Virus record (IMG/VR): IMGVR_UViG_3300047094_000894 | Location: 1 to 21,611 of that record | Reading direction: 5' to 3' (one strand) | DNA: 21,611 bases | Origin: a virus | In this document: positions 12,232 to 19,601 of the stretch, in pieces | Numbering within the stretch: position 1 is the stretch's first letter | Layout: every line of letters begins with the position of its first letter | Notes under the pieces: generated by a model | Seen by the model: only the letters and a program-made list of their open reading frames with translations | Told to the model about the DNA's origin: nothing | Database searches by the model: none | Position numbers and translations under genes: made by a program

Positions 12232-13940
12232 GCTTCTTTTTTCTTGAATGGTTCGTCGTCGTCGTCATCCGGCTCGTCTTTGTCCGGTGGAGTCATCGGC
12301 CCCTTGGTGGTCGCCGTCTCGATGCCGAATTTTTCCATCAGCATGTTGCTCTCTGCGATCTCGGTCAACGTCTGCTCGAGGTCGGTGCCTTGCTCATCGT
12401 GGATGGCTTGCAGGCTGGTGAATTTGTTGGCGAGGTCTTGCGCCTTAGCGACGCCTTCCTTCACGGCGTCCACTCCAGCCCATCGGCGGCCCGTGAACTT
12501 GACTGCGTTGAACTTGCGGAACTTCGCGACAGGCAGCGGCACCGCGCCCATGATGAGCGCCATCTTTAGCCATTCGGAAAAGATGCGCCGCTCCGCTGTG
12601 GAGATGTCCCATTCTTGCAGCATCATCCATTGCGCGGTGATGCTCAGTCTTTCAAGTCGGCCCGCGCTGAAATTAATCTCGGAGTAGTTCTGGCCGAGCG
12701 TCGAAAATTGCGCGGCTGGAAGGCCCGCGCACATTTCGCGCAGGCTCTCGTTGCGGAAGCTGCCCGTCGCCGGATTTGGATTGTTCGGGTTGAACTCTTT
12801 CGCGCGCACGCCGGGAGGCAGGCCGTGCATTCCGCCGGGGTTCATTTCCAGCGAGAACTTTTTCATGATGTCGGGGTCTGGCTGCGCTGCCGCCATGCCA
12901 TCCGGCCCGATCAGATCCGTCTCGAAAAAGACATTGGAGCACGCGCCGACGCGGGCGGATACAACCGCCGCTTCCATCCATTTCGCGAGCTGGCGCGCGT
13001 TGCTCATGATCGGCGTCGTCCACGGCACCGGCCTCGTCACGTCCGCGTCGTCGTCAAACTTGGCGTAGTGAATGATGTCCTCGGCTGGAATGCGCGTGCA
13101 GTTTTCCTCGCCGCCCTGCATGAACGGCATGGGCGCGTAGCCTCCCCATTGGCTCGCGGTTGCCTTGACGAAGTGATATGCCACCGGGACAGGTGCCGCT
13201 CCGCTGTCGTCATACTCGATGCCGAATCGCACCGGGTTGCCGGTCGCCGCGCATTTGCCGGTAAAGTAGTAGCTGCACCACTCCGCGTTGATGTGCTGAA
13301 TCTTAAATCCGAATGGCTGGTAGCGCGCATCGCGGACGAGCCGGATGAAATGCTCGCCGTCGCGCGCTGCGGATTTCAGTCGAAGCTGGCGGGATTCGTT
13401 GTAGCTGAGTCGTCCAGTGACGGTGCAATTTTCGCGCAACTGCCATTCGCGAAACTTCCGCTCGATGAGTTGGCAGGCGAACACGTCCATTTCGCCGACC
13501 TGTATCGTGGCCTTGCCTTTGACTTCGCGAAAAAGTTTTTTTGCGGATGGTTTTTTGCCGGTCGTCCGTTCGATGTAGGCTGCAATCTGCGCGCGGCGTT
13601 CCGTCTCCGCGCGAAGTGTCGCCTTTTCCGTCGGCGTGTGAATCACGCGATCCTCCTCCTCCTTAATCATCATGCGGATCGTGTAGCCGTTCGGCCCGAT
13701 GACGTTCGCGCAGAGGTCTTGGAAGTAGCCGATGACGTAAGGGTTTTCCCGCGCGAGGTTGCGCGAATACGCGCGGAGTTCCCAGTGGTTCCTGTAAATC
13801 TCGGCGTCAACTCCGATGCGGTTCACCTGCCAGTCAGGTGACAGCTTTTTCAACTGCGTAATCAGTTGCGTGTAGTCATTCCGCACTGTCGCCGTTTCCG
13901 GCGCCGCGCTTTTTGTGGATTGCCAGAATTTCCAGTTCAT
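12228..13940 (-). CDS. Portal protein, lambda gpB family
   Basis: The 570-residue product matches lambda-family portals. It has an N-terminal RNHWELRAYSRNLARENPYVIGYFQDL (about 50-76), a central IGxxYxxxG-like beta/alpha stem, SLREMCAGLPAAQFSTLGQNYSEINFSAGR, and a C-terminal GRRWAGVDAVKEG...SLQAIHDEQGTDLEQTLTEIAE (about 484-532) typical of gpB. The portal forms the dodecameric ring at one capsid vertex, docks the terminase and passes the DNA. Lambda gpB is 533 residues; here a strongly acidic, Lys-ended tail (about 553-570) is added. The start overlaps the preceding gpW-like stop (ATGA), so the two proteins are likely made together. Confidence 0.93.
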   Translation of the reverse strand: MNWKFWQSTKSAAPETATVRNDYTQLITQLKKLSPDWQVNRIGVDAEIYRNHWELRAYSRNLARENPYVIGYFQDLCANVIGPNGYTIRMMIKEEEDRVIHTPTEKATLRAETERRAQIAAYIERTTGKKPSAKKLFREVKGKATIQVGEMDVFACQLIERKFREWQLRENCTVTGRLSYNESRQLRLKSAARDGEHFIRLVRDARYQPFGFKIQHINAEWCSYYFTGKCAATGNPVRFGIEYDDSGAAPVPVAYHFVKATASQWGGYAPMPFMQGGEENCTRIPAEDIIHYAKFDDDADVTRPVPWTTPIMSNARQLAKWMEAAVVSARVGACSNVFFETDLIGPDGMAAAQPDPDIMKKFSLEMNPGGMHGLPPGVRAKEFNPNNPNPATGSFRNESLREMCAGLPAAQFSTLGQNYSEINFSAGRLERLSITAQWMMLQEWDISTAERRIFSEWLKMALIMGAVPLPVAKFRKFNAVKFTGRRWAGVDAVKEGVAKAQDLANKFTSLQAIHDEQGTDLEQTLTEIAESNMLMEKFGIETATTKGPMTPPDKDEPDDDDDEPFKKKEA

Positions 13941-14491
13941 CGAAAGTAGGGGCGGATGGAACGGGACGGCGCATCACCGCGCAGACCTGCCGCTTCGTTT
14001 TTTTCCTCCGCAACGAGCGCCTTGAGGTTGCGCACCACGGCAATCATTTTCGGGATGTCAACGCTGGTGATGCTCTGCCCGTTGAAATTCGTCGCCGCGT
14101 CGGGGTTGCCTGCCAGCAACAGGAGCGCCGCGTTTGCCGCGTCAAGCTGCTGCTGTGCGTTTGATTTCGTGAGCGTGCTGGCGGGATTTGCCAGCACGAT
14201 GAAGTCGCCAGCCGCGCCGGTCGTCACGTCGCCGCTCGATGTCTGCGTTGCACGAGCCTGCCATGTCCACGCGCCGACAAGCATCGCCGACGATTGCGTG
14301 GCGGTGATTGTGAACAGGAAATTGTCGCCGGTCGCCGTGCCGGCGCACGTCACCGCTGCCTGCCCCGGCTGGTTGAGGATGAGCGTCGCCGTGTAGGTCG
14401 ATGCCGGGCATTCCGGCAGGCTGAGTTGCAGGCGCGTCGTGTCCCCCGACGTGATGGACTGCGGGAATATAGTGAGAAGCGGGAGCGCCAT
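13937..14491 (-). CDS. Ig-like domain fused to gpW-like head-tail joining domain
   Basis: This 184-residue protein starts MALPLLTIFPQSITSGDTTR at 14491 (an open upstream frame to 14587 has no support). Residues 1-105 form a beta-sandwich/Ig-like module (LQLSLPECPASTYTATLILN, FLFTITATQ, GAWTWQARAT). Residues 109-184 match the lambda gpW layout: NAQQQLDAANAALLLLAGN, a short loop with GQSITSVDIPKMIAVVRNLK, and an Arg-rich end SRSIRPYFR, like gpW's helix-beta-helix and basic tail. GpW closes the head-portal vertex to stabilise packaged DNA. The gene lies directly before the portal, as gpW does in lambda, which supports the assignment. The Ig-like half is not in lambda gpW (68 residues). Confidence 0.75.
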   Translation of the reverse strand: MALPLLTIFPQSITSGDTTRLQLSLPECPASTYTATLILNQPGQAAVTCAGTATGDNFLFTITATQSSAMLVGAWTWQARATQTSSGDVTTGAAGDFIVLANPASTLTKSNAQQQLDAANAALLLLAGNPDAATNFNGQSITSVDIPKMIAVVRNLKALVAEEKNEAAGLRGDAPSRSIRPYFR

Positions 14492-14502: not shown

Positions 14503-14531
14503 CGTATAGCCGCGCCGCGCCGGGGTTGCAA
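14503..14531 (-). promoter_or_regulatory. Putative sigma70-type promoter for the gpW-portal operon
   Basis: TTGCAA (14531-14526) and TATACG (14508-14503) are separated by exactly 17 bases on the minus strand. The predicted transcription start, about 7 bases on, is roughly 5 bases before the ATG at 14491, giving an almost leaderless message. This matches the general scarcity of Shine-Dalgarno sites. The two boxes are imperfect and the region is GC-rich, so chance is possible. Confidence 0.4.
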
Positions 14532-14541
14532 GCGCAAATGC

Positions 14542-15222
14542 TTAGGGTGATGTTTTCGCGAGCCTCGCGGCATACGTGGCGATCCAATCATGCACCGGCT
14601 TGCCTCGGATGAGCCAGCCGGATTTCTGCATCACGGCGAAGAAGTTGCCGTCATAATCAGGATTCGGTTCTACGCCGTGCTGTTTGAGCGTCTCGTGCAT
14701 CGCCTCCACCGAAGTCGGATACGGATGCAGCGGCTTTTTTTCTCCGAAAAACAACTGGTGCTTTGCAAAAGCACCCTTTGTATTCTCTGAAGAAGTCTTT
14801 GCAGTAGTCTTTGTCTTTAGGGGAACTTCCCGTTTCGTCCACTTCCCATCTTCCCGTTTGGGTAACTTTGATGTTTCCATTTGGGCTACTTCGGCGAGGC
14901 GGTCGAGTTCTTCGGTGCGGATTCGGTAATACTTCCGGCGACTCACCCGGCCCTCGGGCTGAATTGTCTCGATCAGGTTCAGGCGCGAAAGGTTCGCCAT
15001 CGCCTTTCGGATAATCTTCTCAGTCCAGAACGGAAAATACTGCCAGCGCCAATCTTCCGCCGTGTTGAAAATCCACTGCTTTTCTTCGATGCGACGACCG
15101 AAGCGCGGATCTCGCAAAAGGTAGTGAAGCTGCTGAAGGATGATTGCTTCGTGAAGCCCGATGACGAGCGCGAGACTTGGCAGGACTTGAAGCGGTGGTT
15201 CTTCGATGATGAGCTTTGACAT
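14542..15222 (-). CDS. Winged-helix replication-initiation-type protein
   Basis: This 226-residue protein starts MSKLIIEEPPLQVLPSLALV at 15222. The N-terminal domain (1-105) has the EPPLQVLPSLAxxIGLHEAIILQQLHYLL signature and WIFNTAEDWRWQYFPFW...IRKAMANLSRLNLI, a winged-helix DNA-binding domain common in phage and plasmid replication or replisome-organiser proteins. A Lys/Thr-rich linker (118-160) leads to a short C-terminal motif, NFFAVMQKSGWLIRGKPVHDW (about 193-213), found in such replication proteins. In this family the N-terminus binds origin or operator DNA and the C-terminus may contact helicase. It sits outside an early region, between terminase and portal, downstream of a hairpin region that may be its binding site or leader. 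The gene could also act as a regulator. Confidence 0.75.
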   Translation of the reverse strand: MSKLIIEEPPLQVLPSLALVIGLHEAIILQQLHYLLRDPRFGRRIEEKQWIFNTAEDWRWQYFPFWTEKIIRKAMANLSRLNLIETIQPEGRVSRRKYYRIRTEELDRLAEVAQMETSKLPKREDGKWTKREVPLKTKTTAKTSSENTKGAFAKHQLFFGEKKPLHPYPTSVEAMHETLKQHGVEPNPDYDGNFFAVMQKSGWLIRGKPVHDWIATYAARLAKTSP

Positions 15223-15233
15223 GGATAAAAGTT

Positions 15234-15282
15234 GCCCCTTCCGCGTCAGACCCGCCTCGAATGAGAGCGGCGCGGAAGGGGC
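15234..15282 (-). other. Large perfect-stem hairpin in the leader of the winged-helix gene
   Basis: A 12-bp perfect inverted repeat (15234-15245 with 15271-15282, GCCCCTTCCGCG) encloses a second stem, CCGC-CTC with GAG-A-GCGG around a GAAT loop (15252-15270). It ends 11 bases before the ATG at 15222. In RNA the 3' arm is followed by AACTTTTATCC, so it could act as an attenuator. Its GGAAGGGG arm could also hide a ribosome-binding sequence. It could instead be a protein-binding or origin structure. Confidence 0.75.
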
Positions 15283-15316
15283 GATGAAAAAGGCTTTTGA
15301 GCCGGTCTGAATCGGC

Positions 15317-15338
15317 GCGTCGCCGTGATTGGCGACGC
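15317..15338 (-). other. Second hairpin in the same intergenic region
   Basis: An 8-bp perfect stem, GCGTCGCC / GGCGACGC, with the 6-base loop GTGATT lies between the terminator of the ParB-fold gene and the larger hairpin. No T-tract follows, so it is not an intrinsic terminator. It is probably part of a structured leader or origin region. Confidence 0.7.
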
Positions 15339-15372
15339 CGCGACATTGCACTACTCACGCGGCCTTGGCAAG

Positions 15373-15409
15373 AAAAAACTGAGGGCGGCACCGTTGCCAG
15401 TGCCGCCCT
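15373..15409 (-). terminator. Rho-independent terminator after the ParB-fold gene
   Basis: On the minus strand a perfect 10-bp stem (AGGGCGGCAC / GTGCCGCCCT, arms 15382-15391 and 15400-15409) has an 8-base loop. CAG and six T (15378-15373) follow on the 3' side. It lies 26 bases after the ParB-fold stop codon at 15436 and separates that gene from the winged-helix gene, which therefore probably has its own promoter in 15223-15372. I could not identify a convincing one. Confidence 0.9.
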
Positions 15410-15435
15410 TGTGTTTGCCTAGATTTTTGGAAGAA

Positions 15436-16248
15436 TTATCCTTTCGAGCTAGGAAATTCGGGATATTTTTCGTTCTCGATAAATCGCAAAACGATAGATT
15501 TTTTTCCTTCCATTACAGCTTTGAATGTTTTGATCAGAAGTCCCATCACGTATCCCCCGGGCAATTTCGCTTTCGATCCCATATTTGAGATCAGCCTGTT
15601 CCTTAAATCGTTAATTGCGCCGTCGCAATTTTTTCCGGAGTAAAGTTTTTCAAGCATCGCCTCGGCTGTTTCAAAAACTTCCGCTCCGCGTTGATACGCA
15701 AGCCATAGGAATGCCATAGCCCCCGACCGTGGTAGCAATTTGCAGCCAGTATGAAATGAATTTGCCAGCATGTAAAACGATTGCAATTCATCATTGTTCG
15801 CGGCGATGAAGTCCATGACTTCGCTCCGTGTCATGGTGGCATTTGTAGATCCAGAGAGCGGCCCTGCCTGCCCCTTTTCGATGGCAAGAATCCATCGCGC
15901 AGCGGCGCTCACGTTTGTTGCGTTCGCAAGTTGCATTGAATCGCCAATTGCACGCTTCAATCCGCAATCAACAATCTTAAAGATTTCTGGTTCGTTCGTC
16001 TTGAGCAGCAAAAACTTTTGCGCCTTGCCTGATTGAACAACCGCAGTCAGTCGATGTTGCCCATTTCCTAGCGTGCCGTTGATCAGCAAGATGGCGTCGG
16101 TGGAAAGCCGAAAAGTTCCGTTCCGCATTTCGCGCTCTAGGTCTGCAACTACTTTTGGCCGGATTTTCCGCTGCATTTCATATCGGTTTTCAAGCATCAG
16201 TGATGCCTCGTTCGGTGTGATTGTCTTGATTTCAATATTTGCGTTCAT
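15436..16248 (-). CDS. ParB/sulfiredoxin-fold phage protein (GQHRL family)
   Basis: This 270-residue protein starts MNANIEIKTITPNEASLMLE at 16248; the open frame extends upstream to 16494 but reads as His/Arg-rich noise. Residues 15-70 contain RPKVVADLEREMRNGTFRL and the motif GNGQHRLTAVVQSG (61-74), typical of a phage family with the ParB/Srx fold in which GQHRL lies at the nucleotide or catalytic loop. The remainder is helical (KIVDCGLKRAIGDSMQLANA, 91-110). These proteins are widespread in phages without an established role; DNA binding, nuclease or CTPase activity has been suggested for ParB-fold relatives. Base composition appears lower in GC than its neighbours, which suggests a moron-like acquisition. 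A strong terminator follows. Confidence 0.78.
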   Translation of the reverse strand: MNANIEIKTITPNEASLMLENRYEMQRKIRPKVVADLEREMRNGTFRLSTDAILLINGTLGNGQHRLTAVVQSGKAQKFLLLKTNEPEIFKIVDCGLKRAIGDSMQLANATNVSAAARWILAIEKGQAGPLSGSTNATMTRSEVMDFIAANNDELQSFYMLANSFHTGCKLLPRSGAMAFLWLAYQRGAEVFETAEAMLEKLYSGKNCDGAINDLRNRLISNMGSKAKLPGGYVMGLLIKTFKAVMEGKKSIVLRFIENEKYPEFPSSKG

Positions 16249-16268
16249 TTTGTGTGGGTTTTTATGGT

Positions 16269-16439
16269 TCAGTTTTTCGGAGCAGGCACCGCGCAGGCTG
16301 CGATGATGCCGATGAGCGGCGAGAGGATGAGGCTGATCGCGAAGTATGCTCCAGCGGAGTGGCCGCGTGCGCCTGCGACGAGTCCGACGCCTACGGAAAG
16401 CGCGATCCAGATGACGATGGGAATGATGTCTATTTTCAT
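16269..16439 (-). CDS. Small two-helix membrane protein
   Basis: This 56-residue protein starts MKIDIIPIVIWIALSVGVGL at 16439. It has two hydrophobic helices (about 5-22 and 31-50, AYFAISLILSPLIGIIAACA) separated by GARGHSAG, and a short Lys-Asn tail. The SLILSPLIG motif occurs in small two-helix membrane proteins of bacteria and phages. Possible roles are a holin-like pore or a superinfection-exclusion protein, but no lysis cassette (endolysin, spanin) is beside it, so holin is only a guess. The ATG was chosen because the longer frame (to 16592) starts with Arg-rich sequence and would make the helices internal. It lies 20 bases before the ParB-fold gene. Confidence 0.65.
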   Translation of the reverse strand: MKIDIIPIVIWIALSVGVGLVAGARGHSAGAYFAISLILSPLIGIIAACAVPAPKN

Positions 16440-16457
16440 TTTGTTTTGGTTCCAAGT

Positions 16458-16508
16458 GCCGCCGCCACGGTGAAACCCGCGCCCGAATGGGCACGGCGTG
16501 ACGGCGGC
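16458..16508 (-). other. Nested inverted repeats upstream of the membrane-protein gene
   Basis: A 7-bp outer arm (GCCGCCG 16458-16464 with CGGCGGC 16502-16508) is extended after one mismatch by a 3-bp pairing. It encloses an independent GCCC-GAAT-GGGC hairpin (16481-16492). It lies in the 173-base gap between terminase and the membrane protein, within the putative leader. It is probably a structured 5' UTR; no T-tract adjoins it. Confidence 0.55.
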
Positions 16509-16563
16509 TGATTTGGTGTTGGATTGCTTGGTTTCACGCAAGAATCGCGGATGCGATGTGGAG

Positions 16564-16592
16564 CTTCTACGCTGCCGCCGTTGGTTTGGCAA
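16564..16592 (-). promoter_or_regulatory. Candidate promoter for membrane/ParB-fold genes
   Basis: TTGCCA (16592-16587) and TAGAAG (16569-16564) are spaced by 17 bases on the minus strand, with an A/T-rich stretch just upstream after the terminase stop (16593-16612). The -35 box is 5 of 6 to consensus and the -10 is 4 of 6. It would start a transcript with a leader of about 118 bases carrying the hairpin at 16458-16508. This is a tentative call. Confidence 0.35.
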
Positions 16593-16612
16593 GGATTATT
16601 TTTAATTTCTTT

Positions 16613-18520
16613 TCACAGCCACCCGCTCCGCGTCTGCCCGCCCTCAAAAATGGCGTAGTCAATCTCCGGCTTCGGCTTCGCGTTTGGCGTGCGCAGGGCT
16701 TCGGCGTCGTCGGCAATGGCCTGCTCTAGCGCGTCCCAGTTGCGCGGGTGCAGCCGTAGCGCACCGAGGCAGCCGACCTCGATGTCGAGGGCTTCGTTGC
16801 GCGCGTTCTTTTCGTTCTCGTATTTCCGAATCTCCTGCCCGCCGTCAAACGTGATGACGACTTTTTCCACGGTCAACTGCTGAAAGTATTCCTCCGAGAA
16901 TCGCTGGTTGAAGTGCATCGCCGTCGCGCCCGGTTCCGTCACGCGTAGGCGTTCGTAGATGCGATCCTTTGCCTCCCATGTCCCGATTTCGTGCCCCTTC
17001 AAATTCTTGGCAACAGTGCTCATCTTGCGCGTGATAATCGGTGCGCCGAATCTGCCGACACCTTTGCTCGCGCGCACGTGTCCCGTGACGTGTTGCACCG
17101 GCTCGCGCGCGATGCGCTGGAAAAAGCGATACACTTCCTCCGCGTATGCGCCGCCGTCCACGAATGCCATTCCGAGCCGTAGCTTCGCGCCGCTAGCGTG
17201 CGTCCACTCGCGGCCAAGCTCCTTTGCCAGCGCCGTCCAGACTTCTTGGTGGGACGTGTAGCCATCGAGCACAACGTGGTCAAGTCCCCACGATTCTTCC
17301 TCGCGGTTCCACGCGCGCCAGCCAACCTCTAGCCGGTTGCGTTGCACGTCGCAAAACGCCGTGATGAACGATGCGGCCTGCGGCACGGTGTCGTAATTCT
17401 CGCGCCGCTCATGTAAGGTTTTCCAGTCGGGCGGCTGCTCGCTTTCGTCGGTGGGGTCGAACGGCTCCGCGTCCACGGTGTTGACCATTGGCCGGCGCGC
17501 GCGCTTCGGGTCTGCGCTCGCTGCGACGGCCATTTCCTCCTCGGCCATCTGGCCAAGGTATCCTGCCGGGTAGCGCACGGGATCAACCGGGTGCGGCCAA
17601 AGCAGCGCGTTGGCGTGGTAGCCTCGCCGCCCGCGAAACTCGTTGCGCGGTTTCCAGTTGTCGAAGCCTTGCTTGTGCGCCATCGCGTAACGCTCTGCGT
17701 CGGTCAGGAACTCGCCGCACCTCGGGCATTCCAGCCGCGCGCCCTCGGGCTTGCCCTTGTCGTATCGAAGCTGTCGGCGGTGCATGACGAACGGCTCGCC
17801 GCCACACTTGACGCATGTGACGTGCCACTCGTTCCAGTCTGAGTTTTCCAGATCGTTCATGATCCGGCTGTGGCCGAGCAGTGACGGGTAGCTCGCCGCC
17901 ACGCGGATTGTGTCCGGGTATTCGCTGCCACGCTTCCAGAATATTTGCACCTGGTCGCCTTCGTCGCCTTCCTCTTTTTGAATGGCGTCCTTTTCGTCAA
18001 TGACGAGGAAGCTGCCTTTCGCGCGTCGCAATTCGCCGGGTGCATTCGCGCCGAACATGGTAATCAGTCCGCCGGGAAACTGCTTGTGCAGAATGGTGTT
18101 GGACGTGACGCGTCGGTTGCCCTTGCTGCCGTATTCGTTCAGGCAGGGCGTCGTGTCGAAAAGCTCGCCGCACAAATTGTCTTTGCTAAACTTCTCCACC
18201 TGTCCAGTCGTCGGCATCATGTAGAGGATGCGGCGCGGTTTCTGATCCACCGTGTAGCCGATGGCCAGTAGGATGACGGTGCTTTTGAGTCCGCGCGAAA
18301 AGATGGCATAGCTCGTCTCGATCACGCGCCGGTCGAAGATGCTCTGATACATGGCGCGCGTGTAGGGCGCGAAGTCCCAGCGGAAGCGCCCGCCGTTTGG
18401 TAGGCGATACACTTCCTCGGCCCATTCCTCCGGTGCCATGCGAGACCACGGCGCAAAGCTGCGCGCGTAGCTGTGCAGCCATGATGCACGAATCTTGGCG
18501 ACGCTGATCGGGTCGGTCAT
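16613..18520 (-). CDS. Terminase large subunit, lambda gpA family
   Basis: The 635-residue product is a packaging motor ATPase plus nuclease. The ATPase part contains SRGLKST (75-81) at the Walker A place, a conserved RRILYMMPTTGQVEKFSKD (96-114) and Walker B FLVIDEKD (171-178). Two Cys pairs (C236/C239 and C265/C268) form a zinc-ribbon insert typical of gpA. The nuclease domain shows Asp residues at FCDVQ (D391), FVDGG (D455) and EALD (D579). The protein threads the genome into the prohead through the portal and cuts concatemers. It is close to lambda gpA in length (641 residues). The start overlaps the Nu1-like stop by ATGA. A small oddity is Leu in place of the usual Gly before the Walker A Lys. 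Confidence 0.93.
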   Translation of the reverse strand: MTDPISVAKIRASWLHSYARSFAPWSRMAPEEWAEEVYRLPNGGRFRWDFAPYTRAMYQSIFDRRVIETSYAIFSRGLKSTVILLAIGYTVDQKPRRILYMMPTTGQVEKFSKDNLCGELFDTTPCLNEYGSKGNRRVTSNTILHKQFPGGLITMFGANAPGELRRAKGSFLVIDEKDAIQKEEGDEGDQVQIFWKRGSEYPDTIRVAASYPSLLGHSRIMNDLENSDWNEWHVTCVKCGGEPFVMHRRQLRYDKGKPEGARLECPRCGEFLTDAERYAMAHKQGFDNWKPRNEFRGRRGYHANALLWPHPVDPVRYPAGYLGQMAEEEMAVAASADPKRARRPMVNTVDAEPFDPTDESEQPPDWKTLHERRENYDTVPQAASFITAFCDVQRNRLEVGWRAWNREEESWGLDHVVLDGYTSHQEVWTALAKELGREWTHASGAKLRLGMAFVDGGAYAEEVYRFFQRIAREPVQHVTGHVRASKGVGRFGAPIITRKMSTVAKNLKGHEIGTWEAKDRIYERLRVTEPGATAMHFNQRFSEEYFQQLTVEKVVITFDGGQEIRKYENEKNARNEALDIEVGCLGALRLHPRNWDALEQAIADDAEALRTPNAKPKPEIDYAIFEGGQTRSGWL

Positions 18521-18936
18521 AGCTTTGCCAGCTTCGCAGGCACCTCGCGCAACTCGGTGAAGATGTCGCGGATCAACTCCGGCGTGAGCGTCTTTCCTTC
18601 GTGCGCTTTGAGCAGGCCCGCCACGTTGCTGAGGCTGGTTTCGTGGATTGCCTCAACGTCCTCGGAAGGCCATCGCTCTCCGCGTAGCACCTCCATTTCC
18701 AGATCAATCTGTTGCCGCCGCGCAATGGTGAGCAGCCGCGATGCCTCTTGCGCCGTCACTGAGCCGGTGCCGTCCTCGCCCGCCACGCCGTAGAGCTTGG
18801 CCAGCGCGAGCTTGGAATCGTAGAGTTTGCCCGACTTCGGGCCGGGCTGGAACGTCAGGCCGTCCATGCTTTTCGTCACGGTCGCGCGCGTTTTGCCGGT
18901 CAGTTTGTGCAGTTCGTTGATGCTTAGGAGTGGCAT
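18517..18936 (-). CDS. Terminase small subunit, Nu1-like
   Basis: This 139-residue protein starts MPLLSINELHKLTGKTRATV, an N-terminal helix-turn-helix of the Nu1/terminase small subunit type (LSINELHKLTGKTRATVTKSMDGL, 4-27). A linker and a helical middle follow (SVTAQEASRLLTIARRQQIDLEMEVLRGERW, about 59-89) and a C-terminal helical region (ELREVPAKLAKL) that in Nu1 contacts the large subunit. It recognises the packaging site on phage DNA. The start at 18936 overlaps the HNH gene by 13 bases, and the stop couples to the large subunit. Confidence 0.85.
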   Translation of the reverse strand: MPLLSINELHKLTGKTRATVTKSMDGLTFQPGPKSGKLYDSKLALAKLYGVAGEDGTGSVTAQEASRLLTIARRQQIDLEMEVLRGERWPSEDVEAIHETSLSNVAGLLKAHEGKTLTPELIRDIFTELREVPAKLAKL

Positions 18937-19601
18937 ATCGGAAGCGGAAGTTGCGATTTACCCGGTATGATTCGTGAACCTTTCTTAGCGTTCTCTGTCC
19001 CCCAAATCGGGCGGAGGTTCTGCCAGTTCCAGCAAATCATCTGCTGTTCAAACGTCGCCGCGAATATGGACTGCGGCAAGATGTGGTCGATCTGCCATCG
19101 TCTGACTCCGGTGCCTTGGTTTCCCCAATCCATGCCGTGCCTGAATTGCGACTCGATGTGCGCGCGAAGCTGTTCAAGCGAACAACCAAGCAACCGCTCC
19201 ATTGCGCCGGATGTTTTTTGGCCGCTAATAAATCGCTGCATCTTCCGTTTGAGTATGAAGCGAAGGCGGAAGGCTGGATCGTTTTTGTATCGCCACCGTT
19301 CAACCTCCGCGCGTGTGGCGCTTTTAGGAAGCGGGTGTTTTTTGCAGTGCGGAATATAGCCTGCGTTGGAGCACAGTCGCCCGCAAAATTTTTGATCTCC
19401 GTTGATTCTTATCTGAAATTTTTTTCCGCATTGGATGCATGATCTTTTTATTCGTTCCTTGCGCTTTCTCATCATCGCGTTTTGAAATGCCTCCTTGAAA
19501 GACGGATCTGCCCGCTGCGCTTTCATTCGTTCGCTGGTTTGCGCGCGGAACTCTGGCCGCTTCCAAATCTCCTTGGCTGCTTGGCTTCTGTTTTGATTCA
19601 T
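18924..19601 (-). CDS. HNH endonuclease next to the terminase
   Basis: This 225-residue protein has an N-terminal helical, basic region (1-52, QAAKEIWKRPEFRAQTSERM, repeat-like DNA-binding helices), a Cys zinc ribbon (C55-x2-C58 ... C73-x3-C77), and an HNH motif: Asp172-His173 in WQIDHILPQS, Asn195 in WQNLRP, and Asn204/Lys207 in ENAKKGSR. The intermediate GCSLEQLRAHIESQFRHGMDW is typical of this phage HNH family. HNH proteins beside terminase in cos phages (for example HK97 gp74) stimulate terminase cutting, but free-standing homing endonucleases also occur here. The lower GC than neighbours and the NUMOD-like N-terminus leave homing open. Confidence 0.88.
   Translation of the reverse strand: MNQNRSQAAKEIWKRPEFRAQTSERMKAQRADPSFKEAFQNAMMRKRKERIKRSCIQCGKKFQIRINGDQKFCGRLCSNAGYIPHCKKHPLPKSATRAEVERWRYKNDPAFRLRFILKRKMQRFISGQKTSGAMERLLGCSLEQLRAHIESQFRHGMDWGNQGTGVRRWQIDHILPQSIFAATFEQQMICWNWQNLRPIWGTENAKKGSRIIPGKSQLPLPICHS

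Follow-up and report, generated by a model that had tools for sequence, protein, structure and literature searches.

In lambda-like phages, gpW lies directly after the large terminase gene. Lambdoid morons are extra genes between conserved late genes, with promoter and terminator signals of their own, a partly different GC content, and separate expression in the lysogen. Structured RNAs carried by phages have also been described. The put RNAs of HK022 are about 70 nt long and form two stem-loops, and putL lies just downstream of a promoter (PMC9378689). The manA and wcaG motifs are structured phage-carried RNAs located before varied genes (PMC2864571). Structured RNA before varied phage genes (manA, wcaG), morons, and put are already known in kind. 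New, as far as our searches reach, is one RNA family common to exchangeable cassettes in one slot, with two of them side by side; no description of either appeared among the papers listed by literature searches aimed at such slots and leaders.

The DNA analyzed here, which we call the window, is a stretch of 21 611 nucleotides from the IMG/VR phage record IMGVR_UViG_3300047094_000894. Its late genes are on the minus strand, as are the genes, leaders, terminator, and promoter-like pairs of the slot described below. The left border of the slot is terL (16613–18520), which encodes a gpA-type large terminase (PF20454, 7.2e-56; PF05876, 2.7e-48), and the right border is the head-tail joining gene in the gpW position (13937–14491; phrog_5774, 1.1e-20). 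Reading from terL, the slot holds a leader copy (copy 2, 16444–16563, a match to model R1), the gene of a 56-aa membrane protein, MemA (16269–16439; phrog_9201, 8.5e-6), the gene of a 270-aa GQHRL protein (15436–16248), an intrinsic terminator of 12 pairs with a T-run that forms the right border of this cargo (15382–15409), a second structured RNA leader that ends in a start codon (copy 1, 15220–15344), and the gene of a 226-aa DnaD-like helicase loader or replication initiator (14542–15222). The preliminary description had a membrane gene, a GQHRL gene, a terminator, hairpins, and a 226-aa gene inserted inside the morphogenesis block; all were found on the minus strand at or near those places, in the interval from terL to the head-tail joining gene. 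The leader before the membrane gene had been overlooked. Taken gene by gene, GC content departs from the core mean (0.595, sd 0.034) in two of the three genes: it is 0.469 in the gene of the GQHRL protein and 0.529 in that of the DnaD-like protein, and the MemA gene, at 0.596, does not differ.

What are the proteins encoded in the slot? MemA has two helices, judged by reading its sequence. The DnaD-like protein matches phrog_6493 (8.9e-26) over residues 1–150, and no Pfam DnaD match was obtained in the profile search. With respect to a winged-helix fold at the N-terminus, the structure model (pLDDT 57) gave mostly winged-helix hits, many with a probability >0.9, but the best E was only 0.042. 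The protein resembles the phrog_6493 helicase loaders in its profile match, and differs from them in that its gene sits among late genes with a leader before it. The GQHRL protein matches phrog_5931 (1.4e-40), a family of unknown function, over residues 2–258. This protein (P0002) gave no Pfam or NCBIfam match and no usable PADLOC or PDB sequence match, and its model (pLDDT 68, weak) had a best Foldseek E of 1.9, with no ParB among 37 hits. A DGQHR protein in L098 also belongs to phrog_5931 (1.4e-28); in the ParB/DGQHR profile search this relative scored 13.4 bits against a cut-off of 58.85. The GQHRL protein is like phrog_5931 proteins in its profile match, and these searches did not place it in the ParB or DGQHR families. 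The 'ParB-fold' label given to it earlier is not established, since its support consists of the GQHRL motif and the match to phrog_5931. As a query in viral_contigs, the GQHRL protein found no close relatives; in phages it has 45 records, all with <60% identity, and all but one among the matches listed carry a name like hypothetical protein. The DnaD-like gene itself contains a perfect palindrome of 19 bp, GGTGCTTTTGCAAAGCACC (14757–14775), near the start of the part of this gene that is retained across the compared versions. An origin within the initiator gene is conceivable.

Loci related to the window were found in viral_contigs through TerL (42 loci) and through the DnaD-like protein (10 loci). 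Thirteen duplicate loci were excluded before the slot comparison, for which 51 loci, counting the window, had both borders; after removal of two false matches, L054 and L064, 49 remained. The close set comprises 12 loci besides the window whose TerL reaches 96% identity or more in the best segment, and none of these 12 has the window's set of cargo. The slot holds a GQHRL protein alone, 60% identical, in L002, L003, and L010; ParB-Dam in L004 and L018; T5orf172 together with a phrog_4652-like gene in L007 and L016; a different 56-aa membrane protein in L008; and a membrane protein of the L008 type with the DnaD unit in L021. Only 46–143 bp are present in L005, L006, and L041. The distance between terL and gpW is 46–49 bp in L005, L006, L009, and L011, and a remnant of 143 bp is left in L041. 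These short gaps show that the cargo has been inserted between genes that are neighbors in relatives. Five of the 12 close loci (L005–L008 and L018) also differ in having another version of the head gene. More distant slots contain an SF2 helicase with a 180-aa gene, a metallophosphoesterase, or a replication initiation protein (L119; phrog_270, 1e-12). Three border elements are conserved: the terminator and two promoter-like blocks, one behind terL and the other near the head gene. In L050, TerL is only 36% identical and gpW is 99% identical, so the slot is also a place where packaging and head modules have rejoined. Synteny is thus the opposite of one arrangement shared by all close relatives. 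The suggestion of a moron cassette or independently controlled unit in the preliminary description gains support from the variable cargo, the terminator shared by relatives, and the promoter-like pairs before both units.

Exchange was also seen elsewhere in these late regions. TerS (window 18517–19601) is 99% identical in L006 and L007, and only 60–63% identical in L002, L004, L005, and L008 despite a nearly identical TerL; an HNH gene adjoins TerS in the window and in L006. The gpW and portal genes, neighbors in the window, are separated by a gap of about 785 bp in L052 (1013–1798) and L053 (882–1667), a second slot.

Part of the cargo is common to two phage groups. In the other group, the terminase matches phrog_15 (7e-58) and the portal phrog_21 (1e-24), and the identity of the shared cargo is 78% for the SF2 helicase, 77% for ParB-Dam, and 68–72% for phrog_4652. 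Eight relatives of MemA (L096–L103) lie directly behind terL of this group, in a region that precedes a 140-aa gene with no family match and the portal gene (phrog_21). The next cargo after MemA is an SF2 helicase in L097, the phrog_5931 protein with a DGQHR motif in L098, ParB-Dam in L099 and L100, and a phrog_4652-like gene in L101–L103; L096 has none. The DnaD unit is found in L044 with 93% identity over 812 nt, opposite in direction to the packaging genes. The window's slot would consist of two cassettes of different origin. One would comprise a leader and the membrane protein (with the GQHRL gene and then the slot's terminator), with its relatives behind the terL of another terminase group. 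The other would comprise a leader and the DnaD-like initiator; it is present as well in a third group (L044), where it heads a region opposite to the packaging genes. Like lambdoid morons, the slot genes lie between late genes, have promoter-like and terminator signals, and differ partly in GC content. Unlike morons, they share one slot with a cargo pool common to phage groups, two units have one structured RNA leader, and replication initiators are among the cargo.

Several loci contain (GGCNN)n arrays of 5–19 units, which without exception lie on the same strand as the cargo genes. They flank the cargo on both sides in L007 (2535–2617 and 3514–3571), L016 (1370–1422 and 2306–2373), and L050 (5208–5300 and 6194–6271), and occur also in L012, L013, L015, L026, L029, L101–L103, L114, L118, and L120. 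In 1.1 Mb on both strands there are 39 runs, some of them in overlapping or repeated loci, against none in one mononucleotide shuffle. A short remnant, GGCAAACACAAGGG, lies immediately before the terminator of the window (15409–15423), and likewise in L002 and L016. The arrays are possibly joints for cassette exchange, and their G2N3 spacing would also suit two-layer quadruplexes.

The leader is about 120 nt long and consists of P1 (8 bp), P2 (4 bp), a linker, and P3 (12 bp), which encloses an inner AUUC-loop hairpin and has a 3′ bulge. The 12-bp arms of copy 1, 15234–15245 and 15271–15282, pair perfectly. The predicted fold of copy 1 has an energy of −63.3 kcal·mol−1, against a shuffle mean of −41.8 (z = −5.7), and that of copy 2 has z = −4.6. 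An alignment of 12 distinct leaders made with MAFFT (A1) is almost free of gaps; 359 of its 360 cells are paired, with 37 double-changed cells compared with 11.4 in shuffles. The alignment A6, which contains all 28 copies as 20 distinct rows fitted to the structure of the model, gives the same picture. In A6, 579 of 580 cells are paired, 96 are double-changed compared with 27.7 in shuffles (0 of 500 shuffles as high), and structures slid along the alignment give only 33–48% paired cells. Pairs that show double changes are only in moderate excess (16, with 12.2 in shuffles; 5 of 500 as high), and further pair types show no excess (30, with 35.3 in shuffles; 500 of 500 as high). The 28 copies are mostly close relatives and represent in essence four divergent versions of P3; as many are nearly identical, copy counts are not independent events. 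The leader cells contain 41 G-U or U-G pairs and one A-C, and this 41 : 1 ratio suggests that the leader functions as RNA of the sense strand. Within P3, the basal GCC, the GCC before the inner hairpin, the AUUCG loop (UUUCG in one copy), GGG, and the bulge A are fixed, and the free part varies in compensated pairs. The leader had no match at gathering score in Rfam 15 (0 matches, 4227 families), and the five matches below that score in 15200–16600, up to E 5, all lie clear of the leaders. The separation of the leader from manA and wcaG, which are cyanophage and marine motifs, is one of Rfam score rather than of detailed structure.

Model R1, built without copy 2, finds copy 2 with 28.5 bits (E 1.1e-5 over 568 kb), and it also finds the leaders of the other phage group, none of which was used in building it. 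There are 28 leader copies on 27 contigs, and the complete genes that follow them are of six kinds, two with a C-terminal part in common. All 28 copies have an ATG in the interval from 2 nt before to 5 nt past the match end, and it opens a complete reading frame of at least 55 aa in 25 of them; the other three run past the end of the locus (L054, L062, L064). The genes behind the leader encode the DnaD-like protein (3 copies), a DnaD-like protein with another N-terminus (8), an 88–90-aa cysteine-rich protein (7), the membrane protein (7), the replication initiation protein (1), and a phrog_4652-like protein (1, in L114); behind the one further copy the gene is cut after five codons. In the eight copies with another initiator-like N-terminal domain (L046–L050, L064, L118, L120), the leader and about 80 C-terminal residues are retained. 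Of the 28 copies, 12 sit in a stretch bounded by terL on one side and a head or portal gene on the other (the window twice, L021, L050, L096–L098, L101–L103, L114, and L119). In L099 and L100, the membrane gene begins 6 nt past the −10 and has no leader. With R1 and R2 (E <1e-3), no match was found before the GQHRL gene, nor in the searched slots with only T5orf172, SF2 helicase, or metallophosphoesterase genes. Long two-part hairpins precede slot genes such as ParB-Dam at L004:3272–3326, L018:1323–1375, and L014:1515–1579; they resemble one another but were not counted as leaders, having another topology and no match to the models. A looser hairpin scan yielded mostly chance stems among the matches listed and was discarded. 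The best E for R1 in four bacterial genomes was 0.22, taken as background, and the one match of R2 in 374 genomes, searched with stricter filters (E 0.005), was regarded as chance. In a search for hosts, the TerL profile found seven relatives at 21–27% in genome_contigs; 387 genomes from the phylum of L085 (Cerasicoccus) gave five TerL matches, the best at about 33%, none with P0001.

The signals around the leaders draw their weight from comparison, since a consensus scan counts for nothing by itself (1 promoter against 2.3 expected; 10 terminators against 10.5 expected). For the terminator, the weight comes from its conservation: a 46-nt block is 100% identical in L002, L003, L007, L010, and L016, so that the terminator at 15382–15409 is common to relatives with other cargo, including the leaderless units of L002 and L016. 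For the promoters, it comes from comparison and a shuffle control. A promoter-like pair with a score of at least 7 at one fixed offset (0–3) was found for 19 of 21 representative leaders, compared with 0.7% of shuffles, and the L050 leader has a pair at the same place with a score just under the threshold. The best TTG-hexamer pair ends 0–3 nt into the modeled leader in 27 of 28 copies; the locus of L118 has only 25 nt upstream. Before the DnaD unit of the window, the pair TTGCCA-17-CAATGT (15343–15371), which overlaps the first two bases of copy 1, is a promoter candidate on the basis of comparison and the shuffle control; its −10, CAATGT, is weak here and in L050. The pair upstream of copy 2, TTGCCA-17-TAGAAG (16564–16592), is promoter-like by resemblance only; in the other phage group (L096–L098, L101–L103) its TAG doubles as the stop codon of terL. 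A third pair, TTGCAA-17-TATACG (14503–14531), ends 11 nt before the start of gpW; 52 nt of this region recur with 96–98% identity in L005, L006, L007, L009, and L018, where they stand in front of a head gene of another version. In the window (gene start 14491), L005, and L011, a promoter-like −10 lies just 9–11 nt before the start codon of the head gene, and being so close it may make the mRNA of this gene nearly leaderless.

We propose that the gap between terL and gpW is a cargo slot in which phages of more than one group place exchangeable gene cassettes, many of them for DNA processing, and that these are promoter–leader–gene cassettes, exchanged between phages, in which a cis-acting RNA leader sets expression. 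We give the two parts jointly a probability of about 0.65. What the comparisons show directly is the variable slot, the cargo in common, the structure and position of the leader, and its presence or absence before one gene. In each cassette, a promoter-like sequence and then a structured 5′ leader come first, and the two leaders belong to a single RNA family. The leader would act in cis as RNA, with transcription starting where P1 begins or slightly within it if the promoters are active as we infer; P3 ends 11–18 nt upstream of the start codon. Because changes in the stem of P3 are compensated while the AUUCG loop, the GCC/GGG steps, and the bulge A are fixed, P3 is most likely a binding site, whether for a protein of the phage or its host, for the ribosome, or for RNA polymerase, and this binding would set the stability, translation, or elongation of the cassette mRNA, in one direction or the other. 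Several points speak against this reading: if transcription starts about 7 nt past the −10, the first one to four pairs of P1 are left untranscribed; the membrane gene of L099 and L100 manages without a leader; the −10s of the DnaD units in the window and L050 are weak; the copies are largely close relatives, with no excess of further pair types; and R1 and R2 found no leader before the GQHRL gene.

Could the leader do its work without any regulator? As a passive 5′ element, its stem near the 5′ end and a second stem before the start codon would protect the mRNA and keep the start codon open. The position of P1, which begins 3–6 nt after the −10, at the presumed 5′ end, fits this. So does the scarcity of Shine-Dalgarno sites in this phage, found by eye at 1 of 18 starts: the leader need not hide such a site, and for the same reason we rejected the idea that hiding one is its function. 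However, the fixed loop, steps, and bulge A of P3 exceed what plain stability needs, and we consider a purely passive role unlikely, although a serious competitor. An antitermination signal that needs no factor, like the put RNA of HK022, would allow polymerase to read through terminators within the cargo or downstream of it. As with put, the structured RNA lies just after an inferred promoter, has adjacent stem-loops, and occurs more than once in the genome, here in two copies; moreover, the window's MemA unit runs into the conserved terminator. The leader is, however, longer than the put RNA described there, with P1, P2, and, next to the start codon, a long compound P3 as a third, different hairpin, and the same terminator also closes leaderless units (L002, L016). 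We consider such a role improbable.

The preliminary description proposed that its winged-helix protein acts on the hairpins; on this view they would be a DNA site, either an origin or an operator, to which the DnaD-like protein binds. They do adjoin a replication initiator, and three types of initiator carry the leader. But the leader also precedes the membrane protein, the 88–90-aa protein, and the phrog_4652-like gene, six different downstream genes in all, it stays when the N-terminal part of the initiator is swapped, as in 8 of 28 copies, and the excess of G-U over A-C is a mark of RNA rather than DNA. The proposal is weakened, and we think it very improbable. Least credible to us is a small mobile palindromic element that landed before genes by chance. 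It would explain why the leader precedes unrelated genes and is missing before one, but all 28 copies are in sense and end at a start codon. The only other R1 matches below E 0.01 are three on the opposite strand (L055, L059, L068; 19.3 bits, E 0.006), and these overlap the leaders themselves, because the leaders are palindromic.

Returning to the cassettes with a cis-acting leader, we suggest tentatively, and at somewhat less than even odds, that the leader represents a cis-acting phage RNA of a new class and serves several phage groups as a portable control module at the 5′ end. If this is true, exchangeable accessory and replication-initiator genes would come under one signal and be regulated from their arrival. 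Phages constantly gain genes, yet one can rarely see how control over a new gene is established. Here, cassettes that have a covarying leader in common can be traced across phages, and the same gene is found with and without it, which makes the question testable. Furthermore, the slot is an address for finding further accessory genes of these uncultured phages.
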